This document shows, in pieces, positions 31,711 through 63,663 of a DNA stretch of 64,000 nt (its first letter is position 1; each line of letters starts with the position of its first letter). The stretch spans positions 2,170,001 through 2,234,000 of the forward strand of contig JADNRZ010000006.1 in assembly GCA_015501605.1 (NCBI GenBank), read 5' to 3'. Position numbers and translations under genes: made by a program. Source of the stretch: Panaeolus papilionaceus. Lineage: Eukaryota > Basidiomycota > Agaricomycetes > Agaricales. The notes below the pieces were generated by a model, which was given only the letters and a program-made list of their open reading frames with translations, searched no databases and was not told where the DNA came from.

Positions 31711-32097
31711 GCAGAGAAATCAACATGTAATATCAGAGAATCCCCCATAGAAATCTACAGGTTGAATCTAAAGCTATTGAGGATTTGTCAGCCCAAAGCA
31801 GAGCTTAAGTCAAGCAGCGTCGAGTGAACAGTTAGCCAAGAAGAAAAGGAATTCATTTAGAAGTCAGATCACCATTATTGGTTTTTAGCCGCTTCCGCGT
31901 CGGAGGACAACGAGCAAAGAACATTCTATTTCGGTTACGGATTACAGGGACGGATTAGTCTACGCGTAACTACGGAGTTTCCCCATTGCCCCCAACGAAC
32001 TAGAACTCGACCTCGGCATTAACCCCAGATATCCCCCGCTCTCGACAGCCAGTCTCGAGCGTGTGTGTGTGTTGGTGTCCGTAACGAGCTCGTCATC

Positions 32098-32109
32098 TGG
32101 AGCCCACCG
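32098..32109 (+). promoter_or_regulatory. Probable tRNA primer-binding site
   Basis: TGGAGCCCACCG starts two bases after the LTR end and begins with TGG, the complement of a tRNA CCA tail. The priming tRNA was not identified. Confidence 0.5.
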
Positions 32110-32158
32110 CGAGGGGGTTTTGGGTTGAAACTTTGAATTTGCGCCGTGCTTTTCCAAA

Positions 32159-33883: not shown

Positions 33884-33897
33884 GTTCGAGGAAGGGG

Positions 33898-38711: not shown

Positions 38712-38807
38712 TTTAAAAAGTGAGAGAGGGGTAGGGATAGGTGTTGTAGCTACGAACTCAAAGCAATATATACACAACGACCCCAACTACACACAAAAAC
38801 CTCTAAG

Positions 38808-40094: not shown

Positions 40095-40137
40095 GTCGTA
40101 GAACGAAAGGATGAGGAATTACGAAGAATAAGATAGG

Positions 40138-40145
40138 CTTTTATA
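40138..40145 (-). promoter_or_regulatory. TATA box of antisense gene B
   Basis: TATAAAAG on the minus strand, 44-51 bp upstream of the ATG at 40094, in a pyrimidine-rich context. It supports independent antisense transcription. Confidence 0.6.
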
Positions 40146-40302
40146 CGAAAAGAAGGGCACCGAAGATGAGAAAAAGGGGTAGAAAACCCGATGAGATTAT
40201 GCAAATAGGAGGAAGAGGCTACAGGAGGGGAGCAACTACGGTACGGAACTCCTACGGAAAAATCACACAAGGTGAAAAACTACCAGAACATTTCCAACGA
40301 GA

Positions 40303-41492: not shown

Positions 41493-41528
41493 GGTGCTGA
41501 GGAACGAATGAGAGGAGCAGTCGGGCGC

Positions 41529-41536
41529 TATAAATA
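41529..41536 (-). promoter_or_regulatory. TATA-like box of antisense gene A
   Basis: TATTTATA on the minus strand (TATAAATA on the plus) lies about 37 bp upstream of the ATG at 41492 and within 100 bp of the 3' LTR. Confidence 0.4.
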
Positions 41537-41623
41537 GGCACCGAATAAACTTACCAAGGGAAAACAGAAATGGTGAACGCGGATAAGGAGCAGGTGACCG
41601 AGGACGGTCATTTCAAATTTAGT

Positions 41624-41633
41624 GAGGGGGAGA
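41624..41633 (+). promoter_or_regulatory. Polypurine tract
   Basis: GAGGGGGAGA directly abuts the first base of the 3' LTR, the expected place for the plus-strand primer. Confidence 0.75.
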
Positions 41634-42493
41634 TGATAGGGCTGGGCCCCGACTCAGGAGAATTTACGGATTAAGGTTGAAACGAAGAGCACAATAGGAC
41701 GGCGGGAGGAAGTGCACGTGTCCATCTGTGGGAACAGCGTCAGTACGAAATACAGGACTGATAATGTTCAGCGAAACAGAAAAGAACATTTACTCACCTA
41801 CCAACGGGTACGGGCGCTACCACTCCTGCCAGTAACCTCACAAAGCCGAGCCCTCCCTATCGAGAATAGGGGAAACCACTTACCATAACGGGGTGTCGAG
41901 CGCTTGAGACGACCTACATGTGATAACCGTAAGGCCGGGATACGAGTTACCGAGGAAAGGGTCAGCTGAGTACCAAGACACCAAGAACGAGGTCGAGACC
42001 GATCGGAATGGAATAAGAGATACCAAGTTAAGACAAAACCTAAGCAAGCCAAGGGAACGAACTTAGAAGAAAAAGGGGGAAATAAACGATAGAAAATAGT
42101 ATAAATAGGCAGAGAAATCAACATGTAATATCAGAGAATCCCCCATAGAAATCTACAGGTTGAATCTAAAGCTATTGAGGATTTGTCAGCCCAAAGCAGA
42201 GCTTAAGTCAAGCAGCGTCGAGTGAACAGTTAGCCAAGAAGAAAAGGAATTCATTTAGAAGTCAGATCACCATTATTGGTTTTTAGCCGCTTCCGCGTCG
42301 GAGGACAACGAGCAAAGAACATTCTATTTCGGTTACGGATTACAGGGACGGATTAGTCTACGCGTAACTACGGAGTTTCCCCATTGCCCCCAACGAACTA
42401 GAACTCGACCTCGGCATTAACCCCAGATATCCCCCGCTCTCGACAGCCAGTCTCGAGCGTGTGTGTGTGTTGGTGTCCGTAACGAGCTCGTCA
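41634..42493 (+). repeat. 3' LTR, 860 bp, intact
   Basis: Starts TGATAGGG and ends GTCA, with TATAAATAG at 42100-42108. It matches the 5' LTR base for base wherever compared and lacks the 1,548-bp insert, which shows the insert arrived after the retrotransposon. Confidence 0.9.
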
Positions 42494-44275: not shown

Positions 44276-44401
44276 ATCCAGGTCGAATAAGAATAGACAT
44301 TGATTGCGTCTAAAGTGAGTTGGTAATGTATGCAATTTAACGGATTAAAAACTAATGAGCGTCATTAGCACCGAACGTTAAATGTCTACCAACCTCGCAT
44401 C

Positions 44402-45078
44402 ATGCGGCTCTCTACACGTCTATCATCACACCAAGGAAACCACAAACTAGCTACAACATCCCTCAAACGCAGCATAACTTTATACACGACACAAAGTACT
44501 CAAGCACACGAACTCTACGCGTCACATCTCGCCTATATAACAAGCCTATCAATTGGAAGCACGGCAGTGTCTTCGGGGGATGCCAGTCTCAAGCCTCTAT
44601 CAGCTATCAGAGAGCTTCACGATCTCGTGTCTCATAACGAACATGGGGATGTATCCCGACTGGCACTCGTTCTGGAACTACGAGAGCTGATGTACCACAG
44701 ACTATGGACTCGTTTCGGACATGCATTACAGCGTGCTGAAGATGCCCACGACATCACATTCCCCGTCGCTGCAGAAGTATCGCCGACAGAGCAGACTGAA
44801 ATGACACCAACAAGCGATGTTATGAAAGTGCTGAGAATTCACGTTCTCATATGCGGTTTAATTTTCTACACCCATGTGGGAGATGGAGATGCTACGCAGC
44901 CTAGAATGAAGAGGTTGCACGATATGCTGGATAGTGGCCATGGGGCCTTGAGTGCTTTGGGACCTTGCGGATGTGTGTATTTCTCTTAATGGGCCGCTCT
45001 CTGACTCCCAGTTGTTAATTTATATTTGCTATTTTACAGATACCTCTTGCGAATTCTACTCCTCTTCAAGTCCAGGTT
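44402..45078 (+). pseudogene. MAU2/Scc4-like cohesin loader, left fragment
   Basis: An ATG at 44402 opens a 191-codon exon to 44974; intron 44975-45039 (gtgtat...tacag) is followed by exon 45040-45078 (IPLANSTPLQVQV). The protein is helical and TPR-like (AIRELHDLVSHNEHGDVSRL, LVLELRELMYHRLW). The frame is cut after GTT by the 17-kb element and resumes at 62326. MAU2 with Scc2 loads cohesin on chromosomes. The assignment rests on my recollection of fungal MAU2 sequences and is moderate. The usual N-terminal part is not visible upstream, so this may already have been a partial duplicate. Confidence 0.5.
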
Positions 45079-45386
45079 CATCAGCAATGTTTGGGTCAGC
45101 TCCGGAGCGCTCTGTAGTGCCCCGTAGCACCGTAGTGCTGTAGCAAAGGGTACCCCTTTTGGAGTTGGTCCGATCAACTCCGTAATTACATGTAGCTTAA
45201 TGATGACGTCAGTAATGCTCTGTAGCGCTCTGTAGCGCTCCCATGACACTCTGCTCTGCTTGTAGGTGACCTGGTAATGCCCTGTTGCACTCCCACTGCA
45301 CTCTGCTCTGTTAGTAGGTGACCTGGTAATGCCCTGTGGCACTCCCATCGCACTCTGCTCTGCTATCAGGTGACCTGGTAGCTTTC
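45079..45386. repeat. Left terminus: inverted repeat, GTAGCAC cluster, 52-bp tandem repeat
   Basis: The first 10 bases match the right end inverted. Within 70 bp follow GTAGTGC, GTAGCAC and GTAGTGCTGTAGC. From about 45.2 kb three partial copies of a 52-bp unit occur (ACTCTGCTCTG at 45248, 45300 and 45352, each followed by GTGACCTGGTA). Such subterminal arrays are typical transposase binding regions. Confidence 0.8.
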
Positions 45387-45745
45387 CAAAGAATCATGTG
45401 AAAACTATGGGGGTATCAGTGTCGGCTCTATATAGCTATAAACCCTCATTGCAGGCGACCAACTAGGAATCTTAGGATTTGTTGTACTAGGTGGGTAAAA
45501 TATAGATGCATGCACCGTTTATTATTAATAGCTAGTATAGGGAAGAACAGGGTTTCATTTGTAACAAAAGTGAATAAAATCAGGACGTTCAATATAACAT
45601 AGAAAAGTGATGAAAGTGTCAGAAAACTAGTCCAATATACACCCCACATGCCTACCCTTCTTCACTTTGGGAGGATTAATTAGATCCCTTTAAGGAAAAA
45701 ATAGGTATCAGAAACGAGTGAGCACAGATAAAAGAGGCGATTCTC

Positions 45746-48666
45746 CTACATTCCTGCTTTGGCCCATGCTCTCAGCATGTCTTCCAACTTCTTTCCGTGG
45801 TATTTGTCAGCCTTGATAGCATCTAAGACAGTGAGGATGTTGTCGTAGGTATCGGCATAAAGGTTACTCTCAAAAGGGATTGCAATATACATTCCCTGAG
45901 AGTATTCGTCAATACAGTTGTATATCTACAGCGGATAGTGAGCAAAAAGTGTTTGATGGTGTGAATGGAAACATACGCAAATCGCAGCAAGAGCTAACAC
46001 TCGAATAGGAACCGCTTCCTCAAATTGTCCTGGAAATCGACGAGCAAGAGAGTCCTTCTTCTTGTAAAAGAACTCTAAGACAAGAGCTCTGATACATGGA
46101 TGAGCGAAGTTAGACTTCTTTCCCTACAGAAAAGTTAGTGGGTGATATTGCTAGAGGGTATTTAAACGTGAAATGAACAAACATTGATATCAACAGGACC
46201 ACAATGCCACTTCGTCCCGGAATCCCCTTCCTGGAGTTTGTAAACCTGTTTGGCGATTACTGAATGTGCCTCGGCTTGACTATGAGCACCATCAATGTAG
46301 CCTTCTTCGCCTTCATCTGGGAGTTCAAAGTGTTTTCCATAAAATTTTTCCTTGGTGACCAGATTCTTACAGACGTCCTTCATCTTTCCTCGGAAGGTTG
46401 CACACTCTTTGAAGACCTGTATATATCCATGAGTGTAAAATGCGATGTATCCATTAATGCAATCCTAACTCACCAATATGTCCATGCTTCGTGTATGCGA
46501 GAATTCTTGAGAAAACACCATAGTAATTGAGTAACAAATAAGAGAAACGCCTAAAATTTAAAACATACCAGGATCAAATTCGACATTGTTTTCCTTAATA
46601 TGGTATTGGATGCGCTCAGCAAGAATGCTAGAAGCAATGCTGAGGTGTTTCTCCCGGTTGGGAAAGGCGAACTCCAATGAAACATACAGCTGAATGTAAT
46701 ACTTGGACTCGACCAAAACCATTTTCCAGGTACCAGAGGACGAATAAAATCTAAGAGTCGCTGGATTGGGTGCATCTGGAGAAATCCTGACACCTCGTCT
46801 AGCCACTGGAGCTTCATCGTCAGTAGATTCTTCATCGCTCTCGTCCTGAGAATCCTCTTGACTATTAGTCGCAATATTGCTGAGTCGTCCTTGGTGCTGA
46901 GCGGCAAGATGAAGATGTTCCTCCTGAGGTAAATGTCGAGCATGATTTCTAGCACGGTGACTTGCCAGAACGTCTTGCACAACAGGAGGCTTAAGGAAAA
47001 ATATGGAAACATGGATCTAAAAATTATTGCAAGTGGACCACTCACTGTAGGGTCTCTCTGAGACGCTGCTATGGATTCTTGTTCATCCATGTCCTGGAAG
47101 TTTTGTTGAGCGGCTTTCATGACGATTAGCATCTAAACACCAATCAAAAAGTCAAGATAAAGAACAAAGTATACCACCTGTGAAAATCGACATTCAGCTT
47201 TATATCTTGGACCCAACTAAGGCAGTAAAACATGAGAGAAGACATCGAGAGTGACTTGCCTTTATCAGAAACATATTCTAGTTCTGCATCATCGTCTTCT
47301 TCCATGGTTGGGTAATAGCTAGGTTGATGATTTAAATGAATGGGACCAGGGGTTACTACATGCTTGCGTCAGTAAGCCACTATTGTGAAAAATAAATCAA
47401 ATAGATACAAGTTATGTCCTCTGTTGAGGCTCGAAGTTTTCCCAAATTAGTATGGTCTTCCATTCCATAATCCTCTTTGTCGCTATTATTGCTGCCATGT
47501 ATGTCTTGAAATTCTTCCTCATGCCCTGCGTTACCAATGGTGCGCGGTTCTCCATCTTCTTTATCACTATTGTTGGCATGCGCTTCTTCATCTTCAGACT
47601 CAACAATGGCCCTGGTTCTTTTTCTACCATATACAACGGTGGCAGGTTTGGAGAACAAATTGCCGATGTCGTCTGTGTAATAACATAAGTAGAGGTCAGA
47701 CGATTTGGAATTCTGAATTGGCTTACCATAGTTGGTGTCGTCATCGACATATTCTTCTCTATCGGCAGAAGGCAGAACCCTGGAGGTGATCTTAGAGTTA
47801 ACACCTTCCAGAGTGTCGATACTGTCCCAGCTGTGTTCTCTGATGGTGGCCTGAAGCATCAGGATTAGTTTATAAATATCAAGGGAGGAGAATTGGGAGC
47901 GACCGTACATTGGGTTTCAAAGCCATTTCATGGGACTTGGAGGCTGGATTTCCAGTGACGTTCCTTGCCAATGCCTGTTGCATGGAGAACCCACCTTCTC
48001 CGACAACTGGCTATATAGCCACAATTAGTTAAGAGCAGTATAAGGGAGATGAAAAGAGTACTTTAGATGGTAGCAACATTTCTGGACCTAGCGCAAGTGC
48101 TGCAGGCGGTTTTAACTGATGAAGAGTGTAGGTGTTGTTCTGAAAAGGGTCGACAGACAATGATGGTGCATCTTTGCAGGATGCAGGCTGAAAGTAAATA
48201 TTAGTAATGCCCAATATCCATGAAAACAGACATACATCAGCTATAGTTTGGTTGAGCTTCAAGCGTTTATGGGCGGGCTGAAGGATGGCTCTTGGAGCCA
48301 TAGGGTTATCTGGCAAACCTGAAGGCATATTTTTTACAACAGCCATGGGCTTCACAGAACCGCGTTTGGTGGTTGTCTTTGAGGGTTTTGGTTGGCCTAC
48401 TAGGGTTTCAGTCAACTTATCCCTGTTCACAATGGTACTTTTGATCTGTCGCTTTTCTCTGCCTGAAGCGAGAGAGTTGGCTGGTTGATTCTCTGAAAAA
48501 GACCAATATTGAGTCTTATGAACTTGGAAAAGAGGTGAACAAACCTTTATTTGCAGGTTGAGCTGCTAAACCTGTACTCAAACATTTTTTAGACTGTAAT
48601 AAACGAACTTGAAGGTAACAAAAAAAAGTGCGTACCTCTAACGGCAGCAGTAGTTTGCTTGGCCAT
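45746..48666 (-). CDS. DUF6532-like protein, 717 aa, 15 exons
   Basis: All fifteen exons join in phase: 48666-48636, 48571-48545, 48492-48236, 48187-48062, 48010-47909, 47850-47727, 47672-47409, 47355-47273, 47216-47178, 47132-47046, 46989-46569, 46505-46474, 46416-46183, 46123-45977 and 45925-45746. The N-terminal half is Lys/Ser-rich and disordered with acidic stretches (ESEDEEAH, NNSDKED). The C-terminal 280 residues look globular and end with NFAHPCIRALVLEFFYKKKD, ALAAICIYNCIDEYSQGM and KLEDMLRAWAKAGM, the pattern I associate with DUF6532, a family abundant in agaricomycetes and of unknown function. It is the first gene inside the left end. Intactness over 15 exons implies recent selection. 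A nuclear DNA-associated role is a guess. Confidence 0.8.
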
Positions 48667-48967
48667 GGTTAGAAACGGGTGAATACTGGCAGCCTGGATA
48701 TTTAAAAAAATGTGGATAAGACAGACGACTCTGAGAATAGGGCGAAGGAAAAAGACAGTCGAGCATTGAATTTCATGTTGGTTTTCAGGTTCACAAGGTT
48801 TATAGTTGTTTGTTTCAGGTTCGACCATGACAACCTAGGGTCACCCCATTTCACTCCTAGTCAAGCAGATATTACCATGCCATAGCGAACAACTAGATGC
48901 AAAATATATGGGTTACCAGTGTATTATGAGAAGTAACAAACCACTTTTGAGTGACTACAGAATACAG

Positions 48968-49540
48968 TTAGTCCAGAATCGCAGATACTAGGTGGCCCTT
49001 ATTATTGAAGGCAGTAACAACGCCGTCTAGAGAACATAAAAGTAGTATCAGCTTTACACACCAAAGACTTGGAAATTACAATATGTGCATAGCTACCTTG
49101 TTCAACAGTCAACTGTGAGTCAGGATTGTGTTGGTGTAGAGCCAGTGGAGCGACATAACCTGAGATGTGGATAGCGTAGGATAGTCGTCCTATTCTTTGG
49201 TCAAGAAGGAAAAGTTGTTCTTCTGCTCTTTCAAGGTCTTTTGTAGCCTGTTGCAGCCTCTGGAGTGATTGCTCTTTTAACTGAAAATGATGCTCATGAA
49301 GTTTGTTGGCCTTCGCAATCAAGGCATCTGCAGTGCCTTGCGAGATAATCAGAAAGGGCTCTTCCTTGGACATTTTGATTGAAGAAATTATAAGATATCG
49401 ATGACGCATTCCCAAATTAAATTAATACATACTAGACTCAAATTACAGTCGTCAGATGTTTCAACAGAGGCAGATTCGACCTCCAAGTCTAATGTAGTTT
49501 GTTGAAGGTGATTATTTGTTGTCGCCAACTTGGAGCTCAT
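48968..49540 (-). CDS. Small charged helical protein, 144 aa, three exons
   Basis: Exons 49540-49433, 49364-49097 and 49026-48968 join in phase (introns 68 and 70 bp). The N-terminus is Thr/Asn/Glu-rich. A helix with coiled-coil character (LKEQSLQRLQQATKDLERAEE) spans roughly residues 60-95, and the protein ends DGVVTAFNNKGHLVSAILD. No family recognised. It lies head to tail with the TET/JBP gene (stop 255 bp upstream) and the DUF6532-like gene (start 301 bp downstream), same strand, suggesting a module that moves together. A DNA-binding or partner role for the dioxygenase is only inference. Confidence 0.65.
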
Positions 49541-49794
49541 GGTAGACTTGCTATTTTGGGTAAATGATGAATGCTATATAGTTTTAATCAGTGTAACACA
49601 GTAAATGTTAATATATCGCTCACTAGAGATGTGGGGAGAGTGGTAGTGGTTGTTCACAAGGAAGGAGAGGTGTGTGAAAGTATACACTCATCAACCATTC
49701 ATAATCATTTGTAAATGTTAACATGTACAAGAGCGACGGGAAGTACCAAATATAGGTCACATGATTAGAAACCCCTCTGAAGAACTGGTACTAG

Positions 49795-52700
49795 TTACTC
49801 TGAAGGGGACACTCTTTTGATAATAAACCTTGAGGGCAGCCAACCATTACGCCTAGCGTTCCATATAGCTAGGGCTCCATCAGTATGAAAGACAAGGCTA
49901 ACTCTCTCCCCCACATAATGAGTATTAAAGTGCGAAAGAGCATTAGAAACAAAAACGACTGCATCACCACATCGTAGAGATAGACGCAATCCAGCCTCCA
50001 TTAGACACAAGTCCCCTCCTTGACAGTCCTTCGTTAGAGCAAGAACCACACATATGCCAGCGTCCTTCTCATCTCGATGGACTTCTGTACAAACATTGAA
50101 GTTGATGACAAAACCGCCAAAAGGTTCGACAGGAGATCGTCCTCCTCCAGGCAAATCTTTAGCTAGTGTTGCAATGAGCTGGATTTCATCTGGAAGAACA
50201 TGCCTCATCTGTAGAAATATGGATTTATTTCCAGAAAAAAAAAGAGAAGGCAAAGGACGAACAGCTTCATATAACCATTCAAATACAGGATCAAGGACTT
50301 CGCACAGTGTTGTATATTCCTCCAGGTTATCCTGAGTCTCCTTTGATGTTCGGGGCATAGTTTGTGGTGTACTACACTTTTTATGCTTCTGTTGGCGTCT
50401 CTCGTAGTCCACAGGGTGTTCATCTGGTTCTGCGTTATCGCCCTATTAAAACATTAGCTACAAGTAAAACCTGCAAAAGCTATACAAACTTACCTGAAGT
50501 GAGTATCGGTTATACCAGACAAAGTGAAGACTGGAGAAGTCCTCTACCTGTTCGCTAGAAGATCTATGACAGATCTCTTGGTCGAAGAAGGTTGTCTTTA
50601 TGGCGTTCAAAAGATTTCTGCGCAAATCTTCAGGTAAATCTGGAAGTAATGCAGCAAGAAATTGTCCATCTTTTCCATTAATACGTAGTCGACGTCTAAT
50701 CCATTAGTATTAGCAATGTGTAAGCATTGGAGGATATGTGATGGACAACGCACCCTGAAAGCATTTCTGGTTTGATTTGAATGTAATCTGAATTGGAGCG
50801 TCGATAGCCAGAAGAGAGTATTCTGTTGAGCTTGAAGAAGGTGCCGAATGTTAGAATTGAATAGTTTTATCATCAAAGAGGAACTCACCTGCTCCTCTAC
50901 CTCACCAATAGACATGGTGGGGCATGCACTATCAGCAAACCTTCGGTGGGTGTCGGTATATTTTCGGGAATTTTCGAGAGAACAGTTTGCAGGGTATTTT
51001 TTCGACCGGTTATAAGGATGATGGAGGTCAAAAGGTGTATTGATGATGTCCAGCTCCACTGGAGGATGTTGCGAATATTCCAACTCAGTAGGTAACTCTT
51101 CATTGTCAGTGATTTGGGACATAGGTGAAGGAAACCTATCTGGATTGGCAGTTATGAGGGCGTATGGCTGAGTGGTGTTAGAGGGGAGTGATTGGAATAT
51201 AGACGACTGTAGAAGGTGAATTGAAAATGCTTCCTCATCATCCACGGGTAGAAGACAAGCTGCCCAGGCCTTAAAACATCTGGGGGGAATCATGGTACTG
51301 GATCGAAAAAAATTTAACGATTCAAGTACAATGTCTAGAGCAAAAATAGATACGTACTTCACCAAGAGCGAGTTAAAAAATCTATCAGAATCAGATAAAT
51401 CTGTTGATATATCAAGTTCTCCTCTAATGCCACCAGGTATAAGGAATGCGTCGTCGAAAAATGTGGCGAACTTTAATTGATATTTCTTGCGAAGGAGGGC
51501 AATGACTGGAATTATGTATTCAATGACCTGCGCCCCTTTCTCATCATCTAGAACCTTGCAGCATTAGAGACCAGTAGCTTGAACGATAGAAAAGAAATGA
51601 CCATACCAGTAGGTGCTCTGATTAGGTGACATAATCTAACCAAAGTATCATGTGTAAGCTTGAAGAACGATATCCCGGAACTTTGCTGATAGCATGCAAT
51701 AAGGAGGAGTAACAGAATAGTACCTGAGAAAGGATGAGTTATCGATAGACAAGTAGAATATATGGCTTACCTGCTCCGGCTAGGATAATGCACCTTCGAC
51801 CATCATCATAATAGGTTCGCATTGTTTTAACAGTCAGCATGCCTGTTGCCGTTGTAATAGCCGCTCGTTTTAAGATGGTCTCTTCAGACTCATTACTGAT
51901 CCCCTGTCGCCTAAGAAGGTGTCAAGATATTAAGAATACCGCAAATTGGAGACACGCACCTGTGTACATAGATCGCCAAGTACATAGTACTGATCATATA
52001 GTTAAAGGTACAAAGAGCACCTCCTTGCTTCGCCTTATAGCAGCGAAGAATCAAATTTTGTGGTGAATCCACACTCATAATCTGTTGGGCGATGCTAGAA
52101 TCCTGAGAGAGAGCCAGTTGAGGAGCAGATAGTCTTTGGAAAGTGAGGTCAATAGTGTCTAGGACCGTAGAAGCCTCGTGTACAGGCTTAAGGAGAATGT
52201 CCCTGCAGAGAGTGGCAAGCCTTTGAAAGAATTGCAGTGGGAGACGTGCAAGCACTTGAGACTCGAGAATTGGGGGAGAGGTCTGCACATGATCAAGGAC
52301 ATCGCCTGCAGTTGGCTCAAAAGGCATGGCCTCTTCATTGGAATCTATGTATTCCCTATCGTTCAGATGCCGTGACACTTGTGCCATACCACCCCTACGG
52401 TCAGCTGATTTTTTGGCGCGTGAATGACGAGGACGTGCTTCTTGACCAATGACCTGAGTTTTTGCTTGTGACTTCTTGGAATCGGAGGATCTGGTCTTGC
52501 GGGTTGGTTTGGTAGTTGGGGTGGCGGACTCAGAGACTGGTGTAGATAGGGTAGAAGAGGCCTTGTAGATCTTTAGTATGAGGTCGTGCAGGTGAAATAA
52601 TAAAGAATCAAGACATACCATTATGCGCTCGGATCGTCGCCTGGACTGCTGCTCCTCAGCCAACCCCAATACACCTGCTAATTTAGTCTCCACGATTTTG

Positions 52701-52807
52701 AGGATATCAGACGAGCTTGACTGTAGCACAAGTCCTGAATGGGCGATAAGAAAAGTGTGGATGGCCTGCGCTTCCTCCTGAGTGAGCGACAACGATTCCG
52801 GTGGCAT
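49795..52807 (-). CDS. TET/JBP-type 2OG-Fe(II) dioxygenase, 860 aa, nine exons
   Basis: Exons 52807-52619, 52570-51960, 51910-51771, 51723-51607, 51547-51358, 51297-50889, 50830-50754, 50695-50494 and 50442-49795 join in phase without stops. The C-terminal domain carries the metal triad HxD in NVCTEVHRDEKD (His767, Asp769) and the distal histidine in SNALSHFNTH (His816), with the 2-oxoglutarate-binding arginine in GERVSLVFHTD (Arg825). This spacing and the flanking PFGGFVINFNVC and GGDLCLMEAGL match the fungal TET/JBP family, which oxidises 5-methylcytosine or thymine in DNA. The N-terminal 600 residues are Ser/Lys-rich, then helical, with no recognised domain. Such genes are expanded in mushrooms and linked to KDZ-type transposons. 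All catalytic residues are present. Confidence 0.85.
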
Positions 52808-53100
52808 GAGTGATGACTAGAGTAAGACAATAGCTTCATGAACAATAACAAGTTTATTAGCGTAAATAAATGTCATAAAATCAAACAATTGTGAATTGCG
52901 ACTTACTGTAAGGTCAGGGATATGGGGTTGGAATGGAAGTTAAAGAGTATCGCAGGAGGGAACACTCGGAATGCGACTTCTGAACTTTCCCACACACACG
53001 GCTGACTTCAGATCTAGAGTCGCAGGCCTGCTTGAGAGGATCCAAAGTCCGAGTCTTTCAAAGAACGTACACAAGAAATACAAGTTAGCATAGAGTTTGA

Positions 53101-54446
53101 GTAGGTGGAGGCCGTGATGATTATTATTCATCATCGTATCGCGGATACCCACCGCCCCCTCCAGGATCGCATGGTGTGCCTCCCCCGCCTGCGTCTGTGC
53201 CAGGTCATGGCCCGCCTTCACAGGCAGCAGCGAGTGCACCACCACCTCTCCCTACGGGAGCAGGAGTGAGTTCGATCCCGCCGCCTCCTGGGATTGTCCC
53301 AGCGTCAATACCTATACCACCCAGCCCCGTCCCCGGACCCGTATCATGCTCAGGTCCAGCGTTGACTCCTACGCACACCACCGTCCCTCCTGTCGCCTCC
53401 GTTTCAGGTCCAGGCCCAGCACCGGGCGCGACGACGCCCAATATAAAAGCCGCTATGATGACGACTGCGAAGCTGCTCCCTGGGGTGCCGTGTATGCTCG
53501 AGGGCTGCGATTGTGAGAGCTCGAGGGCGTGGAGGCCTGATAGGAAGCGGGCGGAGAGGATTGATAGGGAGCGGGCGGAGGAGAGGGAGAGGGAGTGGAG
53601 GGATAGGGAGCAGCAGCAGCGTGAGCGGGAGAGGAGGGAGTATAGGGAACGGGAGATGAGGGAGAGGGAGCAGAGGGAGAGGGTAGGGAGGGAGAGGGAG
53701 AAGCAACATAGAGAGAGGGAGAGGGAGAGGAGGGAGAGCAAGGATGAGGTTATGGGGAGTCCGGAGAGGGTGGCGAGCCCCCCTGTTGGGGGTAATGGCA
53801 ATGCGGAGGGTGGGAGTAGTCCTAATCCGAATGCGATCGTCGCGAGTCCGACTCCCAATCCTGCTATTGCCAGTCCCAACCCTACTCCTAGCGCAAACGC
53901 AAATGCGAACCCCAGCATCAACATCACCAACGGAAACGCGAATGCGAATGGGAACGCGGGTCTAACAGCGCCCACGACGCATGCTATGATGCCTTCTCCG
54001 CCTATTTCGCACTCGAGTGCGGAGAGTGATGGGGAGGGGAGAAGGAAGAAGATGAGGGAGGAAGATGATCGGGAGGAGAGGAGGGAGTTCAAGGATAAAG
54101 AGGGGAGAGAGGACAGAGAGGGTAGGGAGGAGAGGAGGGAGAGAGAACGAGACAGAGAAAGGGGCGAAGGAAGAGAGGATAGGAAGGGGCCTGTGTCGGC
54201 GCTGATGGGATCCTCGCCCAGCTTCCCTACGTATTTGCCTGGCCCATATCCTCCGCCGTTACTTAACCAGAGGAGTTCAACAGGGAGTGGGGTTTTGAGG
54301 AGTGGTGCGTTCTATTCTTTTATGTTGTATCTGAAGACTTGCTGATTGCTGACTTTGGCGTTGTAGGTGTTCCAGCACTTTCGAGGAGAGTAAGTGCACC
54401 TGTGAGGGAAGGATATTCCACAGGTGAAGGACCGGGCTTTGGATAG
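53101..54446 (+). CDS. Host-like Pro- and Arg/Glu-rich protein, 5' end missing
   Basis: The frame is open from about 53101, beginning GGGRDDYYSSSYRGYPPPPP, with no ATG until a Met-Met about 115 residues in, so the true start is absent or in an exon not seen. Exon 1 ends 54304; intron 54305-54366 (gtgcgt...tgtag) leads in phase to a short last exon ending at TAG 54446 (SGVPALSRRVSAPVREGYST). The protein has a Pro-rich N-terminus, a possible short Cys cluster (CMLEGCDCES), long Arg/Glu runs and an Asn/Ala-rich linker. It is GC-richer than the transposon genes on either side. It looks like a captured host gene with a complete 3' end. Function unknown. Confidence 0.5.
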
Positions 54447-54649
54447 TGTGGTTGAGGTGTTGTAGACATGTTTAATGGTGGGGGTGCAGGAACGGGTGGA
54501 TGAGGACACCTCGGCGTAGGTGTTGACGATCCTACGCTATTAGTTGGATAGAGCCTGAGTGTCTCGTTCGTCCTTGATGATTCCAGACTTTGTGACCACA
54601 GAGTTGACTATAAGTGATAGATTAGTGTTATGAATTCAATAATATAGAA
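54447..54649. other. Short intergenic stretch between convergent cargo genes
   Basis: Lies between the stop at 54446 and the end of the minus-strand cargo frames. Nothing recognised. Confidence 0.4.
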
Positions 54650-57453
54650 AAAAATTTGAACACACTAGCACTGATGAAACTCATCCCTCTTCCGGATCTT
54701 CCATCTCCACCCAAAGCAGGGGGTAGTCGTGCGCCACACGCTTTGAGGTAAAAGCTTTGAGTGGGGCGACAATAAAACATGCCGCAACACCCAGTGTCTG
54801 TTAAGACGATCAATTCCACTTTCAAAAAACAAAAATAAAAAACGTACGGCAAAGGAGTGTGTAAATCCAAACTGGAATCACTATCCCCACACGTATCCTG
54901 CATCTCGTCTCTCCCAGGCTCAACCTCCCCAAACTCGCCTCCTTCGGTGACCTCATTCGACATCATGCGCTGCCTTCCGCGATTCTGCTCTCCAGGAAAG
55001 CCAAATCCATGGTCAACCCAACTCTCCTTACCCGCTTCTGGTCCACTGCTCTCGCTGGCCCTTCTCTTCCCGCTGGCACCAACAGACCTAAACGCACTTG
55101 GCACACCATCCAACAAGCTCTTGTCAGAAAGCGCCGAGACACTGGCAAAGTTCCTAAGCCTTGTCCTCCCCTTTTCGCTGTGAAAGAAGCAGAGAAGGTA
55201 TATGTTGGCGAGCGTGATAGCAAGGAATTGGCATAATGTCCATTTGACTTGGTGCCAGGTTGCGGTTTTGGAGTGGACGAAAGGATGGCTTCAATATCAG
55301 GGGACGGAGACCTGGTATCACTAGCCTCCTTACTACGTGCTCGCAGGCGCAATTTCTGGGACTGAGAAGGGTTGCTCAGAAGGTCTTTCAGCAATCAGTG
55401 TCCTTGCTTGTCTGAATTAGAGTGTACGCGGTGGAGGACCTGAAAGGTATGGGAGTGCCTTGAGGCTGCGAGGGTTTAACCACCACATGATGAGGTCATG
55501 GAACCCAAACGATACGCAGATCATAGCAAGCACCCCTTCCTCACAACCTCAATCCTCTTCACATACACTCCCGCCGTAACGCTGAACATCACACTCCTCC
55601 TCTTCTTATCCCCTCCTCCTCCACTCACATTATCCACAATAACCAACGAAGACGTACTCCCCGGCGGACTCACGCGCCGACTCGTACTAGGACTGAGTTT
55701 GGGGCTTTCCCCATCCTTGGGTTGACCCCGCTCCCGCTCTGTGTCTGATTTCCCCCAAAACTCTGGTTTTCTTTCTCAGCGCTCCTATCACTCGCCACAC
55801 TCGCACTACCCTCGCTGCCTTCACCAATCGGTGATGCCCGTGCGGCGTCTCTCGCGATCATACGAGGGATATATATATGCGTACGGGTGAAGACTCGAGC
55901 TTTGAGGTTGGCTTTGGTCGGACGTAGGCGACGGCGTTGCAGGAGGCCCAGAGGGAACACGTACCCCGCTGAAGCGAGTGAATAAGATGTGTTGATTTTG
56001 AGGGTGGTTTCAGTCGATACAGGTGAAGGGGATAGGAGAGGAGAGGAAGGAAAATGTAAATGACGACGTAGGGAATGTGGATAAATCCACGATTTTCCTG
56101 CGTTTGTCGATTTCGTCAACTGTGAGGTTAAACATAGGCAATGCGGGATTCTGGATCTTTGTTGTTGTCTGCATCAACGTCTAGTTCAACTTCGTTTTCG
56201 TCGTCAAATACTGTAGGGAGTGTTGACGAAGGGAGAGGAGTGCCTAGGCCCACCATATTCTCAACGTCACTCTCAAACCCAAACTTTTTCTCCCCGCTCA
56301 TCTTCCACTCTTCACCCCGCAGCACGCCCTTCACACGTCCATCACGGTGTTATACGTGACACAGTATGAGCGGAGAGGGATGGTAGTATCTGACGGTCTC
56401 CGTGTATAGGGACTGCAGGTTATTAAATTTACGTTTGAGTTGGTGTTGGGAGAGGTTGAGGTTAAGTGCGACTGGGAATGAGATGGCAACCGCGTGTGGG
56501 GTGAGAGGAGCGCAGGGATTGAAAATGTAGGTGGCGATGCAGATGGTGTCGTCGTAATCGGGGACAGAGTAATTTTGGGGACACCTTCACAGGCGTTGGT
56601 GGGGTCCGGGCATGAATGGGTATAGGACCAGGATACACGGTGGGAAGGAAGACATAGCTGAGGCCGGCGGAATTTCGAGGGCATCAATGACGGGGATTCA
56701 TGTACGAGTGAGGTGGTGGTGGTGGGGATGTGTGTGAGCGGTGATGCAGCGTTCGCTAAACATGAGGTGGTGGGTGAGGCGGATATGGTGCATCGTTCGC
56801 CTGAACGGGTGGCGGATTGGGATGTGTGATGCCGGAATCTGGGGCCAGAATACAGGTGAGTTCATTGTGCAAAACAGTGGAAAGAGAGACGACATACGTA
56901 GTATTAGGAACTCTAATAACAACCCTTGTAGTCCTCCCCTCATCTTCATCATCTTCATCACCATATAAATAGCAAGCCCAACAATACCATCACCGTCGTC
57001 TTCTTCACCACTCGTCGCACTCATCTCTCCTCTCTTTTTCTCTCCTGTCTTTATCTTTCCCATCCTTTTCCTTCTCCTTGCTTTTCATCTTCAACCCCCT
57101 CTTTCACAAAGGCAAAGCCACGCCCCTCGTACCCATCACGCCTAAACCTGCAAGCTTGAACCCGGTAGCAGAGGGCGCGCATAAATCTGGAATCAGTATG
57201 CATTCAGAGTCGAAGGGAATGATACGGGGATGGAGAAGGGGTACGAGGCGTTGGGAGTGTAGAGTGCCGAGGTGGACGTTGTGCTACCTGCGGATGAGCT
57301 TGAACTTGGGATAGGGATGGGGTCGGAGGATGAGGACCTGGACTTGTATGAGGAGAGGGACATTTGACATTTTGAGGCTGTTGTTGAAGACATGTCCAGG
57401 GCAGCGGTAGGATGGTAGGATAGAGAAAGGAAGAGCAGGCCCCGTAGACGCAA
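54650..57453 (-). pseudogene. Host-like low-complexity gene(s), broken frames
   Basis: Several minus-strand blocks look translated but lie in different frames. They include a Ser-rich start (about 57.4 kb, MSSTTASKCQMSLSSYKSRS), a Lys/Glu stretch (about 57.05 kb), a Pro/His stretch with an in-frame stop (about 56.8 kb), and GFESDVENMVGLGTPLPSS (about 56.25 kb). Near 55.75 kb QPKDGESPKLSPSTSRRVSP is out of frame with its neighbour RSAEKENQSFGGNQ, with a run of five Gs in between. Near 55.0 kb RRASESSGPEAGKESWVDHG is followed by a plausible intron. Real introns can explain some switches, but not the stop and G-run shift. One or two degenerate host genes are the simplest reading. Confidence 0.4.
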
Positions 57454-57579
57454 ATTGAAGTAGATTTAATTTAATTTGCCTTGCCGAAATAAAATCGAAA
57501 GATATTGTTGCCAGATTTCGAGAGCAGCCTGAGTCACGGTTGTGGCGCGAAATAGCAGTAAGTAATGGCAAGTCGAGTG

Positions 57580-58148
57580 CAGTCAGACAGTGAGGCGATG
57601 CACAGAGGAGAGTCACGATAACGGAGTAGAGAGGGCGGAAAGACTTGTCAACTGATTCAAGAGGTTAGAAAGGTGGCGATAGTGAGCAGATGAGATATGT
57701 ACCAAAAGCCTGAGTAAACATCTTGGAAGCAAAGCCAGTTTCAACGATAGACTGATTGGGAGACATAATTCTTTTCTAGGTTGTTCGACTTGTCGCTGGT
57801 CCACTTGGATGGAAGATCGGCTGCGATTTCCGCAGTGAGGTTGGCATACGCCTCGGTCAAGAAGAGGTGAGTACTCCAGTTCCATTTCTAAGAGTCATTC
57901 GGAGCCCAAGAGAAGGCTGTAATCCCCTGGTAACGGTGGATAATGGGATGTCCCATAGTCCTGTTCAAAGTAGATGAGTCAGGCATGATGCGTAAATATA
58001 AAGTGACATCAACTTACTCAAGACCGGTCCTCTTGTTGAGGATTTGCGAAGTCTCTGCCAATTCGCTCTGGTCATACAACCACTGGGATGAGTAACGATT
58101 CAAAAAGGTGAGTACACAGGACTTGAAGTCTTGAAATTGTGAAATCAT
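57580..58148 (-). pseudogene. Unrecognised host-like gene with stop and frameshift
   Basis: Exon 1, 58148-58018, starts ATG (MISQFQDFKSC) and reads LYDQSELAETSQILNKRTGL. Intron 58017-57961 (57 bp) joins in phase to TMGHPIIHRYQGITAFSWAP. A TAG at 57890-57888 interrupts NDS and KWNWSTHLFLTEAYANL, but the frame continues coding-like (AAEIAADL-like, then WTSDKSNNLEKNYVSQS). It then shifts to IVETGFASKMFTQAF, and after a further 51-bp intron to VDKSFRPLYSVIVTLL. One stop and one shift in otherwise strong coding sequence mark a young pseudogene. I do not recognise the family. Confidence 0.5.
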
Positions 58149-58440
58149 TCTGCCCAAGAGCAGTAGAGTTTAAGTGCCAGTGAAAAAGGAGATGCAGATA
58201 GGTCAATGATAGACGATGTATGGATTAAGCAGAGGTGGGGAAACCGTTACAATGAATTGAGTAGAACTCAAACAGTTGTGATGAGAAAAGCATGATACCC
58301 ACTTCCTGACTTTCTCACGGGTCATAATATCCAGAAATGATATCCTTGACCTACTCACGCACTTCAACGAGTATCTGTCCACAGCATCTCTCCTCCCAGC
58401 AGTTCTTCTGGTTTACATTTAATTTCAAATACACTCTGAC
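58149..58440. other. Divergent upstream region of the transposase gene
   Basis: About 290 bp between the cargo pseudogene start (minus) and the transposase ATG (plus). Pyrimidine-rich near 58.36-58.42 kb, consistent with a fungal promoter. No other feature seen; the cargo/transposon junction probably lies here. Confidence 0.4.
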
Positions 58441-61400
58441 ATGGTTCAACACTCTACTAGAGAAGCTTTGGTTCCAACCAACCCTTGTCCTCGTTGCGGT
58501 CGTTGTTTTTTCACCAAAACAGATGTTCTCCAGCATATGAACCAACCGATCTCCAGATGCTCTGCTCTTTACCAGTTTCGAACCCAATCTCTGGAGGGCT
58601 CTTCCCATAGTTCTGCTAATGCTGAACCAGCAGAAAGCCTAGCTTCACTGGAAAGTCTCGGTCCCGCTATCATGGATTTCCAGCTGGAGGCCCAGCAGAT
58701 GGAAAACAACAACGGGATATCCACTGGTGCCCTCGTGCAAGACACAAATCCCAGCAGAGATGAAGTAGGGAATGATGCTACAGCAATGGATACAGCAGAA
58801 GACACATTCACATTCTCGCAATCACAGCAGGGCTCTGTTGGACAATCGATCTTCGCTCATCCCAATCCCAAACACAACACTACCAAACCCATCATCGAAA
58901 AGTACCCCCACATTTCCCCAACTTTTATGATAGAAGGACAAACATTTATGGACAAATTTGACCAAGATACACATGCTTCAAAGCGAAAGATTAACCTCTA
59001 CTACCCTTTCTCCACAAAAGCAGAGTGGGAACTGGCGTACTTTCTTCTTCAATCGGGACTTAGTATGTCTAGTATTGATGACTTTCTAAAGCTTGATCTG
59101 GTAAATTCAATTAATCTTTGCAATCAACAAGCACTGATGTTTTTTCTAAGATCAAATTGTTGGGATTAAGTTTCAAAACTGCACAGACCTTGCGAAATCT
59201 TGCAGAAGTGCTCCCCGGTACGCCTTCCTGGGTATCCACAACTATCGAAACAAAAGTCCCCACAAAAAAACCTGTAACTCTCTACTACCGCGATCCTATA
59301 CAATGCGTTCAGTCTATTCTCCACAATCCTATCATAAATGATTTTCTTGAGTTTGATCCCTACCGGCTGTGGCAATTTTGTGAGGAGACCCATGCAACAA
59401 GAACTCGACTTTATGGAGATTGGCTTTCAGGGGATATGGCCTGGTTTATCCGTGTAAGTGTTCTTTCTATCTTTGAATATAATGAGCTAGGTACTCAGAG
59501 AGATACTTAGGAGAAATTACACCCCCAGGCGACACTGCTAGGGGTCATTCTGTCTTCTGATAAAACCAACATCTCCTCAGGAACTGGCGCGCGCTATGCA
59601 CACCCTTTGTTGCTATCACTTGCCAACTTAAGCAAAGACTACCGAAACAAAGCAACCAGCCATGCTTTTGTCCTCCTGGCCCTTCTTCCCATACCAAAGT
59701 TTATCCATCGCAAGCGGAAGATTCGAGGAATATTGGAAGCGCGCCTCTTTCACCAGTGTCTGGATATCATTTTGAAGCCTCTCAAAGTTGCGGCTCAGGC
59801 TGGCCACATGCTCTCTGATCCCCTGGGATACACGCGCTGGTGTTTTACTTTCCTTGCGGCTTACATTGTCGATACACCAGAATCTGCTCTTATTGCATGT
59901 GTTGCAGGCAAAACCTCCTCTGTAACACTGGCAAGTTACAAACAGTTTGGCGATCCATTTCCTCATCTTCGACGACATCCCAATCATACCCTTGAAGCGC
60001 TGTTGGCTATCAAGAATGCTGTTGATGATATCTGGGACTTGGAGGCTTATGAGAAGGAGGCAATGAAGCACCGTCTGAATGGAGTTCATGAACCGTTTTG
60101 GAGAGACTGGATTCTCTCTGATCCCTCTATCTTTTTGACCAGTGAACCGCTCCATCATTGGCACAAGCAATTCTGGGACCACGATGCCAAATGGTGCATA
60201 AATGCAGTTGGAAAGGAAGAAATTGACTTTCGTTTCTCTATCCTTCAGCGGCATGTGGGTTTCAAAGCGTTTAAAGAGGGGATATCAAGCCTCAAACAGG
60301 TGACAGGCAGAGAACATCGAGACCTTCAGAGGTACATTGTTCCAGTGATTGCTGGAGCAGTTGCCACTGAATTTGTCATTGCTATTCGATCACTGATGGA
60401 TTTTCGATATCTAGCCCAAGCACCAGTTGTTTCCTCTAAAGTATGCAGCATGATCACCCAATCTCTCGGTATTTTTCATCAACATAAAAACGCAATTATG
60501 GACGCTAAAGCGCGAAGGGGGCAGAAACAACCAATCCTACACTGGCGAATCCCCAAACTTGAATTTTTTCAGACGGTAGCATCAAACATATGCTATAGTG
60601 GTGCCGCAATACAATGGTCTGCAGATACTCCTGAGCATGCCCATATCAGATTCATCAAAGAACCAGCTCGTGCGTCGAACAACCAAGTGTATGAGCCACA
60701 AATTTGCAGGTAATTAACTCATGTTATCGTCATATAATATCAAATCTTTTATCATTGGGTTATAGATCTCTTGATCGTCAGGATAAACTCTGGCATTTTG
60801 ATCTTGCAACAGCTATCAGAGAAGCAAAGATCGACTTCAGGGGCCCAGGAGGAGAGCCTACCCAGCAGGGGCCATGCTCAGCAGACTTGGAAGATGAAAC
60901 AGAAAGGGATGATCCTGGGTCTGGCGTCAGCCAACTCGAAGCCTCCACTGGCACCTTCGACACAATAGCCAAGGATTCAATTCAAATAACAACGACATCT
61001 GATCTTTTGGCAGCAATCACCTCTACACGACATCTCCCTGGCGCTCAAGCAATCTCTGGGCTTGCGACATATGGCATTACCAACTATTTCTACAGGGCCA
61101 CACTTTTGAAACAAGGTTACATTGCTAATGCCGCAACACCTCATCGCACCATCCAAAGCTCTCCAACAACCGTTTTTCATCTTTCTAGAGATCCTTCCAG
61201 TCAGTTTTCAGGGTTGGATATCGACACATTGTCAAAAAAGTTTGATATTGAAGATCTCAGGCCAGCCATTGGAGACTACCTTAATAGGTTGAAAACAAAT
61301 CATCCAGATACCTTTATACCAACCATTGGAGGCCGACGCACTTCCCTCCCTGGCTGTCCACTACCTATTTCCAACCTTCAGGTTTGGAACTCTGTTCGTC

Positions 61401-62016
61401 TACAGTCTACCACCTATCATTATCCACATGCTATACGCCCTCCAGTCACCATAAAAGCAGAACCTGGACAGGGTGGATGGAATACCGGTATTTTTTGTAT
61501 TGACCCTTCCAAGCAGTGGCCTCAATCTGGACTTTCTGGTATGACTTCTGTTTTTATTCTCAACGTCTGCACATATCTAAATACTATTCACTTTGACAAA
61601 TAGGGCATATAATAGCGGATATTAGAATAATTTTTCAACTTGTACCACCAAAGAATAAACCTGGATGTTTGGGAGAAACACCTGATAGGTTTCTAGTGTA
61701 TATCCAGAGATACGACATTGTTCCGCAACCTGACCCGAACCCACAGAATCCCAGTTATGTTGCCAGAGGGAACTACCCTGAAGGCTCAACTGCTCTATAC
61801 CTCCTCAAAAGGGCCACAAGGTCTGGAAATCATGCAGCCCTTTTAGGCGACATTATTCCCTTGGATCAGCTTTGTGCACTTGTTGATATTGTACCTAGAT
61901 TTGGAGGCAAGGCGAATCCAGGTCTGACTCATTTAAATAGTCTTCAGTTTAGTACAGAATTCTGGTTAAATAAGTACTTTGATAAAGAGTTGTATTATGC
62001 CCTTACACTATCCTAA
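58441..62016 (+). CDS. Plavaka-type transposase, 1,115 aa, five exons
   Basis: Exons 58441-59100, 59151-59453, 59511-60709, 60766-61538 and 61604-62016 join in phase, introns 50-65 bp, with no stop or shift. A C2H2-like finger (CPRCGRCFFTKTDVLQHMNQ) lies at residues 17-40. It is followed by NLYYPFSTKAEWELAYFLLQ, DPIQCVQSILHNP, LLGVILSSDKTNISSGTGAR, SDPLGYTRWCFTFLAAYIVD and GREHRDLQRYIVPVIAGAV. These are hallmarks of the large Plavaka transposases of mushrooms, related to the KDZ and CACTA groups. ILSSDKTN probably carries a catalytic aspartate. It is expected to bind the subterminal repeats and cut at both ends. The intact frame implies recent mobility. The ATG chosen directly precedes the finger domain. 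Confidence 0.85.
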
Positions 62017-62139
62017 TTTTAGGTGCTTTGGCTGGCAGTACGTAGGTCTCTACTAGTACCATACTATTCCAACTGTACAAGCAAATTTATATTAAGCAAT
62101 CCAGAGAAGAAAAAAAATTAAAAACACTAATATAAGAGA

Positions 62140-62323
62140 AGACACTCTGTAGAGCTACACAACTTTCATGTTGCAGTCCATAGTGCTATGGTGAAGGAGG
62201 ATATATACCAACTGCTACATAGTGCTACTGCGCTACAGCTGTCTACTGCGGCTATCATAGGTGCTACAGCCATCAGTGGCGATGCTATACGTGGGTACAA
62301 CCCAAAATCGGAAATTGCTGATG
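62140..62323. repeat. Right terminus: GTAGC/GCTAC cluster and inverted repeat
   Basis: Read inward from 62323 the end is CATCAGCAATTTCCGATTTT, then GTAGCAC, GTAGCGCAGTAGCAC and GTAGCAG motifs. The first 10 bases match the left end. It resembles the left end of the 1.55-kb element even more closely (18 of the first 20 bases). Confidence 0.8.
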
Positions 62324-62616
62324 TTACTCATCCCCGCGTCATTCTACATCCGGCATTCCTCATCAATTCCATTTCAAAACGGGATCCGGTTGGTCGTAAA
62401 CCTAAACGTAAATTATTTGCGGGTGAAGGTGTCAGTGCTCTTGAAAGGGACATCAAGTGGGAGATCGAATGTAGGTTGTCTTCTTCTCACTTCTGTCTTG
62501 CTTATATCTCACTTTTGGTGATAATTTAGTGCCAACATGGTCCTCGCAAGATGAACTGGACGCGATTTACCTCAGAATGCATAAAATAAAGGTGGATATG
62601 TTATGCGAACTCACCG
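62324..62616 (+). pseudogene. MAU2/Scc4-like cohesin loader, right fragment
   Basis: After the TT duplication the frame from 45078 continues from 62326: THPRVILHPAFLINSISKRD, then GRKPKRKLFAGEGVSALERD, to 62470. Intron 62471-62529 (gtaggt...tttag) leads in phase to LPTWSSQDELDAIYLRMHKI and VDMLCELTG, ending near 62616 at a possible donor (gtggac). The expected following exons were not found in the next kilobase, so the copy seems truncated at this end too. The gene name is my best match and not certain; the interruption itself is directly visible. Confidence 0.5.
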
Positions 62617-63663
62617 GTGGACAGGTTTTTATCACACTTATATTCGCATTGCGTTGTCACTCACATATTCATCTTCCACATTCCCCTTTCCTCTCTTGGA
62701 TCCATGTGCAATCAAACACTCATACTTACGTAGATACATGCCACAATTGCTATCGTTTACGTTTTATTATTGTCTGTCTTATTGTTCATGGTCGAATATC
62801 GCCATTTACGTCTTCATCTGACTCCTGAGTGTCCAACTTCCAAAGCAGGCGACATGGGTCTTCAGGGTGGCATCAGCTGCTCATGACACACACCTCGACG
62901 CTATGTATGCATGTTGTAGGACTTTTCATTCGCGTCTGTTTAAATTTTATCTTATAGGGATCTCATGGAGCCCTTGCTATCTCCTTCTCCAGGAGAAGTC
63001 ATTTTAATAGATTCGTGACAAACCAAGGGTTTTTCCCGGGTTTCGCCCTACTTCTTCACAGTGATTATCAAAGTGGACCACGCTCCTGCTGTGTGTATAC
63101 TGTAAATCTGTATTGGGTTGTATCCCACGTAAAGTCATCCACAATGCTTTTATTATGGCATGGGGTGGTGTAAGGACATGAAGCTGTCCCGGGATGTCCT
63201 TCCCTCCGTTCCCTCCGTCTAATTTATTATGAATTGGCTGCTTGCCTTGGCGAGGCCGTTCTTCACTCTATTTGGTTGTATTGCGACTTGAAGGGGGGAG
63301 GTGAACCACCGTTCAAGCACCAGGTTTTCCAATATAAATATTTTTTACTTTTTTTTCTTCTTTTGTACGTACTTATATCCGAAACTACATTTTTTACAAG
63401 TTATGGGTTGGTGCGGGGTCACCAGTCGTCATTAAGTTATGCAGAGACTATCATGACGCAGGCGAGCACACGAACAAAGGAATCGGAGAGTATCCTAGGT
63501 CGAGAATAAATATCAACAAGGCATGAAAAGACAACTACGAGAAAGGGAGAGGGGAACGAGAAGATGCAAAAATAGATAGATAAGCACATGCTACCGCTGA
63601 ATTGGCAGGGGAGAGACAGCTGGCAGGGTCGTTGCAATTTGGGCCTAAAATCGAGCACAAGTG
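62617..63663. other. Mostly noncoding, one coding-like scrap
   Basis: A short frame near 62.84-62.91 kb (PKQATWVFRVASAAHDTHLD) looks coding and could be a displaced exon of the neighbouring fragment. Otherwise nothing is recognisable. The last 200 bp are the probable 3' flank of the minus-strand gene at the right edge. Confidence 0.4.

Follow-up and report, generated by a model that had tools for sequence, protein, structure and literature searches.

Analysis of a 64,000-nucleotide (nt) stretch of the Panaeolus papilionaceus genome (the window) identified a 17,245-bp element at positions 45,079 to 62,323. This copy, called W here, is probably one PlavakaB-type transposon that combines a transposase gene, a divergent DUF6532 gene and a predicted TET/JBP-type dioxygenase gene with a patchwork from six host loci, likely copied into it during break repair. 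Its ends are CATCAGCAAT and ATTGCTGATG, the outermost 10 bases at each end are perfect inverted repeats, and TT is found on both flanks. The preliminary description of this DNA, made from the letters alone, had given the inverted ends, the TT flanks and the coordinates, all of which are exact to the base. It had also taken the whole to be a single mobile unit, and this is borne out by a continuous paralogous site and by a sister copy that has both gene modules between one pair of ends.

A precise insertion with host DNA at one internal spot

A search of the genome with the joined flanks of W showed an uninterrupted match at C12:192,246-193,262 (C-numbers are contig labels), which is 96% identical and has a single TT at the junction. 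In a longer alignment of the flanks with C12, 1,035 of 1,083 columns were identical. This site is a paralog of the W target rather than a proven allele. Because it is continuous with one TT, the element of 17,245 bp and one TT together make up a single block relative to the paralog. The insertion of W is precise, and its target is a duplicated gene fragment, 1.08 kb long in the window, with a longer form on C12 that has more open stretches on both sides. The preliminary description had seen here an interrupted MAU2-like open reading frame. The interruption, at 45078/62326, is real; however, what is interrupted is only a fragment, and neither an identity as MAU2 nor the wholeness of the longer form is supported. 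Two pieces that were scanned gave no Pfam match to the MAU2 or cohesin-loader family, and a gene scan at the longer form on C12 did not yield one clean gene. Knock-out of a single-copy cohesin loader is likewise unsupported because the target is a duplicated fragment with a longer form elsewhere. In the target region outside the element (44291-62815), the 1.08-kb fragment is followed by a second piece of 199 bp at 76% identity, and about 1.3 kb of the source is missing between them.

The ends of W recur in the genome. With the window included, there were at least 34 matches to the left end and at least 30 to the right, and the strict terminus pattern had 27 exact matches compared to 0 for a reversed-pattern control. 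The preliminary description had proposed a search for further copies sharing both ends, and two kinds were found. One is the sister copy at C11:201,466-234,401 (32,936 bp), which has the ends of W, a TA duplication and the module order of W at 74-86% identity; its transposase gene is interrupted by a 13.8-kb CACTG..CAGTG element (C11:203526-217326) with AAA flanks. The other is a set of 16 short copies of 1,543-1,596 bp, 94.7-100% alike (median 95.9%), which share about 90 bp with the long element at the left end and roughly 50-90 bp at the right. These copies were picked where both ends had matched, so the shared ends reflect the selection, whereas the duplications do not: a perfect 2-bp duplication was present in 13 of the 16 and none in the other three. 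The one short copy that was scanned had no frame longer than 94 codons, and the short copies look like non-coding passengers. W was assigned to the PlavakaB type on its termini (5'-CATCA..TGATG-3'), its target duplication (of the 2 or 3 bp that characterize the type, counting TT in W, TA in C11 and the 13 short copies) and its PF18759 domain. On C30, matching Plavaka ends lie 22.5 kb apart on the same strand (C30:25467-47960), and the interval has no match to a Plavaka transposase; this may be a large carrier that lacks one or a pair of truncated copies.

Between the two gene modules, positions 53,112-58,086 are tiled nearly end to end by six pieces (F1 to F6, Table 1) of host loci on six other contigs, at 74-92% BLAST identity; two weak matches to C6:1204.7-1205.0k in the low-complexity part of F1 were dropped before counting. 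A filler of 162 bp separates F3 from F4, and shorter ones occur elsewhere in the patchwork. The "host cargo" of the preliminary description was thus rightly labeled but is in fact a mosaic of fragments. Host matches are not found everywhere, because the TET-gene stretch of the element, used as a control (not an ordinary host stretch of equal length), matched W and C11 alone and no host locus. Capture occurred at the DNA level since F5 keeps the intron of its source, including GT..AG. In C11, the same gap holds pieces of C67, C6:65-66k, C70, C56:1.66M and C6:852k, with the C6:65-66k piece nested in the C67 piece. The two patchworks have no source in common, and neither has a source on the contig of its own element. 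Both lie between the same edges, formed by shared stretches of about 190 bp on the 5' side of the TET gene and about 270 bp on that of the transposase gene. Since these stretches are common to W and C11, replacement of both promoters by captured DNA was ruled out. Different patchworks at one internal spot in two sisters provide a fixed place to study how capture begins.

Table 1. Coordinates of the element, its genes, the captured host pieces and the target in the window.
Feature	Position	Strand	Remarks
Target fragment, left part ("MAU2-like" in the preliminary description)	44291..45078	+	96% identical to C12
Target site duplication TT, left copy	45077..45078		paralogous C12 empty site has one TT
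Left terminus CATCAGCAATGTTTGGGTCAGC	45079..45100	+	outer 10 bp form a perfect inverted repeat with the right end
Subterminal tandem repeat, 52-bp unit x 2.9	45230..45380
DUF6532 gene, 14 exons, 731 aa, BJ165DRAFT_1525751	45746..48666	-	P0006 maps exactly; PF20149 9.5e-30
Small helical gene, 3 exons	48968..49540	-	exons joined by hand; no Pfam match
TET/JBP-type dioxygenase gene (predicted), about 9 exons	49795..52807	-	catalytic core 49798-50208, HRD...SHFN...R
Stretch 5' of TET gene common to W and C11 (left edge of gap)	52808..52996		local alignment score 43.5, compared to at most 16.5 in 200 simple shuffles
Host piece F1	53112..54402	+	source C14:131137-132399, His/Pro-rich gene with weak C2H2 finger match
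Host piece F2	54401..54563	-	source C2:802352-802502, JAB/MPN-domain gene; right border 54551 in other alignment
Host piece F3	54559..55370	-	source C16:695308-696123
Host piece F4	55533..57601	-	source C5:548803-551400, three aligned blocks; right border 57642 in other alignment
Host piece F5	57606..57750	-	source C3:1215042-1215182, amino acid permease gene; keeps an intron
Host piece F6	57770..58086	-	source C23:352942-353252, Hsp70-related gene ending in HDEL
Stretch 5' of transposase gene common to W and C11 (right edge of gap)	58173..58440		local alignment score 35, compared to at most 20.5 in 200 simple shuffles
Plavaka transposase gene, 5 exons, 1,111 aa, with DUF6830	58441..62016	+	PF18759 8.6e-90; PF20722 4.1e-40
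Right terminus ATTGCTGATG	62314..62323	+
Target site duplication TT, right copy	62324..62325
Target fragment, right part	62326..62612	+	96% identical to C12

Genes of the element and loss of CpG

The Plavaka transposase named in the preliminary description was recovered with its five exons, and its PF18759 domain, the one expected of PlavakaB, scored 301.7 bits over the full profile (1-325), this and the other Pfam scores of the transposase being taken on a form without the first residues. Between W and C11, the ratio of nonsynonymous to synonymous substitution (dN/dS) came to 0.27 in the DUF6532 gene (0.10 in its domain), 0.23 in the TET gene, 0.19 and 0.15 in the two transposase parts and 0.17 in the helical gene. 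By this pairwise estimate, the ratio is low (0.15-0.27) in all four element genes. The preliminary description had counted 5, 9, 3 and 15 exons. The counts of 5 for the transposase and 3 for the helical gene hold and the 9 of the TET gene is provisional, but the 15, which probably refers to the DUF6532 gene, is 14, for a public protein (P0006) maps onto that gene letter for letter in 14 exons.

The DUF6532-like gene, which the preliminary description listed among accessory genes, is present, but it is no odd accessory. In a genome scan, 31 DUF6532 matches merged to 25 loci (W and C11 included) and 112 Plavaka matches merged to 62. A PF18759 Plavaka transposase was present within 20 kb at 21 of the 25 DUF6532 loci, compared to 1.2 expected from coverage, a figure that ignores transposon clustering. 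The divergent layout seen in the window was found at 17 of the 25, and the spacing between the two domains in these pairs was 2.4-3.6 kb in 7 and 9-17 kb in the other 10. Wide spacing is seen, for example, at C45:2184k, C67:2159k, C17:428k, C7:1190k, C56:2101k, C14:804k and C4:1676k. DUF6532 is a usual Plavaka partner in this genome. The public model of the C11 copy (P0007) is open, and structure prediction for the DUF6532 protein was uninformative, with a predicted local distance difference test (pLDDT) score of 30. One paper lists DUF6532 among enriched domains. Partnership with Plavaka transposons offers this domain of unknown function a role that can be tested.

The TET/JBP-type gene of the preliminary description is supported by an HxD...H...R motif, the arrangement (HxD/E...H plus Arg) of TET/JBP proteins; its PF12851 score sits at the curated cut-off. 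The sequences aligned were those of W, C11 and a third genomic locus on C4 together with four database relatives (P0002-P0005). All seven have the His and Asp of the presumed iron triad as well as its distal His (that of SHFN), and all 6 that extend to the following Arg have it too. The PE-type hallmark HxE is absent: the motif is HRD in W, C11 and P0002-P0005 and HKD in C4. At the offsets of the AG-type positions 331 and 337 of CcTET, W has D and V by an ungapped count from His326, made without an aligned CcTET. The gene is open in a 7-exon model, to which a comparison by eye with the public model of the C11 protein (P0001) adds two introns, giving 9; at least one splice site of the 7-exon model looks wrong, and the exon structure is provisional. 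The dN/dS of 0.23 was computed on this 7-exon model and falls to 0.11 in the core, that is, the last exon, which indicates that the gene is under purifying selection and the core under strong constraint. A dead TET gene in C11 was considered and rejected since the in-frame stops there come largely from unspliced introns and P0001 is open. The product is predicted to strip silencing methyl marks.

Across the genome, nine Tet_JBP places were found at E up to 0.1, of which three (W, C11 and C4) are near Plavaka and six have no Plavaka within 20 kb. The third TET gene of the HxD kind (L080, C4:774240-777557, with the match at C4:775740) is 45% identical; its nearest Plavaka match, divergent and partial, is 9.3 kb away, and DUF6532 gave no match in the vicinity. 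The six others (L073-L076, L078 and L079) are below the curated cut-off; two of them, read in frame, have the motif HADFANLPFGW (L076) or HSNFANLPFGW (L078), and in L078 Asn replaces Asp. No solved structure matched by sequence at E up to 1.

The ratio of observed to expected CpG (CpG o/e) in W was 0.59 in the left module, 0.53 in the transposase gene and 0.76 in the patchwork, compared to 0.82-0.90 in the six source regions and 0.77-1.05 in the window outside the element. The values were 0.39-0.58 for C11 without its nested element and 0.38 for one short copy. A source CpG is TpG or CpA in the element at 71 of 222 sites, compared to 40 of 191 for the reverse (p 0.014). This is the pattern expected from deamination of methylated CpG, and it suggests that the element was a target of methylation. 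The gradient from element core through captured pieces to host sources could act as a clock of methylation on the element. The nested 13.8-kb element in C11 has a CpG o/e of 0.85 and therefore looks young.

Weighing the explanations

A single transposon of this kind would work as follows. The transposase, likely with the DUF6532 protein, would mobilize both the element and the short copies related to it, the dioxygenase would oxidize methylcytosine on the element, and breaks between the two divergent promoters would be repaired through template switching onto host DNA. Demethylation by the dioxygenase and capture by break repair are both steps that we infer. Several observations weigh against the explanation. 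The patchworks are readable in only two copies. The junction overlaps, 2 bp at F1/F2 and 5 bp at F2/F3, fit template switching but are not proof of it, and they depend on scoring (F2/F3 is otherwise a 7-bp gap). Projection of the W exons onto C11 gives 2 stops and 39 gapped codons in the DUF6532 gene (none in the domain), 1 stop each in the helical gene and the second transposase part, and 4 stops in the 7-exon TET model, most of these 4 falling at introns of the public model. Plavaka is missing within 20 kb of four of the 25 DUF6532 loci (two on C10, one on C32 and C67:1937k), and at four more it has a non-divergent layout (C11:43k, C17:16k, C30 and C31:167k). For the dioxygenase, PF12851 scores lie near the cut-off of 34.9 bits (W protein, 33.8; core exon, 33.1; P0001, 28.6; genome scan, 36.5), and the fold model of the core was too poor to help (pLDDT 48); a Foldseek search with it was meaningless. 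Finally, the loss of CpG points to methylation of the element despite its TET gene.

This last point bears on what the dioxygenase does. The depletion of CpG suggests that the TET gene failed to keep the element clean. The escape from methylation-based silencing put forward in the preliminary description is supported only indirectly, by the purifying selection on the TET gene, and the depletion suggests an element that was not kept free of methylation. The TET-like protein may instead be no demethylase at all, acting on C or T in another way or on RNA or adenine, and aiding transposition otherwise. The continued CpG decay, the absence of a PE-type HxE and, by ungapped count, of the AG-type Gly/Ser331 and Asp337 would agree with this, and Kojima 2025 (PMC12730594) likewise allows for other activities in the PU and PE types. 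The invariant His, Asp and distal His in the 7 aligned sequences, the Arg in the 6 reaching it and the strong constraint on the core speak against it, and we consider this alternative rather unlikely. Still less likely is a joint evasion of silencing by the dioxygenase and a disposable, CpG-rich host spacer between the divergent promoters. Here, repeated capture would renew a single-copy spacer, such that no two copies share a stretch that repeat-directed silencing could target.

The origin of the patchwork can also be explained in other ways. The least improbable of these, although still on the unlikely side, is that the pieces were gathered in a related species and that the element reached P. 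papilionaceus later, through horizontal transfer or hybridization, in which case the pieces would differ from local genes as orthologs do. In 300 simulation runs of local capture followed by neutral drift, which covered F1, F2, F3 and F6, the nonsynonymous share of F1, F2 and F3 was each below all 300, and the four pooled had a nonsynonymous fraction of 0.48 compared to 0.56-0.64 simulated (0 of 300 as low). However, F6 by itself is compatible with local capture and neutral drift thereafter (93 of 300), F3 has frame-breaking indels and F6 has stops, and selection after capture would yield a signal equal to that of import. The simulations would therefore have the pieces either already diverged at capture, for example in another species, or kept under selection. 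A Pack-CACTA route, in which two neighboring elements with complementary end deletions fuse around chromosomal DNA, is improbable to a greater degree. Such a route has been proposed for Arabidopsis, and Plavaka is described as related to CACTA/EnSpm (PMC12730594). Modules from different elements would be expected to differ in divergence, and between W and C11 the synonymous divergence (dS) is 0.72-1.03 in the left module compared to 0.41 in the right, while selected noncoding stretches are 68% identical on the left and 76% on the right (p 0.002). This hints at different histories of the two halves. Nevertheless, the route gives one contiguous stretch per event, whereas W draws on six sources and in C11 one source is nested inside another, and the stretches 5' of both genes are kept in the two copies. 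An extreme alternative is that the middle is ordinary host DNA flanked by two separate insertions (45-53 and 58-62 kb), as the higher GC content of the middle (0.49-0.60) relative to the gene modules might suggest. The paralogous site on C12 is continuous, a single pair of ends in C11 encloses the same two modules, and matches to six loci on as many contigs cover the middle almost without gaps. Barring an assembly error, two insertions are ruled out, and we give them next to no weight.

Known systems and neighboring sequence

Helitrons are not known to have terminal inverted repeats or target duplications. The fungal gene-capturing Helitrons (PMC4289320, PMC5148889) resemble W in that host gene fragments ride on a mobile element, but they are rolling-circle elements. 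Closer in structure are the Pack-TYPE elements (Pack-CACTA and Pack-MULE; PMC8903248, PMC13317346), which like W are terminal-repeat transposons with gene fragments from several loci. W has gene fragments from elsewhere between its terminal repeats, as they do; however, the Pack-TYPE elements of these accounts are non-autonomous, lack a transposase and are from plants, and W is from a fungus and has an open frame for a predicted 1,111-aa transposase as well as other genes. The animal Pack-TIRs, with their gap-filling or FoSTeST model (PMC8277862), share with W an internal capture site, short junction overlaps and a proposed template switching. They differ from it by a bias toward sources on the same chromosome, whereas none of the six sources of W or the five of C11 is on its own contig, and by the transposase and TET genes that W has. 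Capture of host genes by terminal-repeat transposons is thus known from plants (PMC8903248, PMC13317346) and animals (PMC8277862).

Plavaka elements with TET/JBP genes have already been described as well, and W is a further member. Kojima 2025 (PMC12730594) presents TET+ PlavakaB families in Agaricus bisporus and Gymnopus confluens and places the Plavaka dioxygenases in the PE type, with the hallmark HxE. These families and W are alike in their CATCA..TGATG ends, 2-bp duplications, transposase plus TET/JBP gene and Agaricales host, but the PE type given there for Plavaka is HxE and the dioxygenase of W, in another host genus, is HxD, which adds a further TET kind on Plavaka. DUF6532 is absent from the main text of that paper, and the sections covered here do not mention captured host DNA in Plavaka. 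In the wider literature on Plavaka, Pack-TYPE elements, fungal gene capture and DUF6532, with Repbase, supplements and the 2014 paper that named Plavaka outside its scope, there was no report of host-gene capture by Plavaka, and within the same scope none of DUF6532 as a Plavaka partner. Against this body of work, the combination is new: a transposase-bearing element that collects host pieces at a fixed spot, with DUF6532 as a usual partner and an HxD dioxygenase of a kind unreported on Plavaka in the literature covered. Such an element is a place to study both the evasion of silencing and the pickup of host genes by transposons.

Upstream of the element, the window contains a long terminal repeat (LTR) retrotransposon at 31278-41975. 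Its 300-nt direct repeats (31278-31577 and 41676-41975) are 100% identical, and its open gag/pol-like frames are long. From these frames, we take it to be Ty3/Gypsy-like, and the identity of its repeats goes with what is probably a recent insertion. Adjoining this LTR element, positions 31199-31258 are 82% identical to positions 21-81 of the left end of the transposon.

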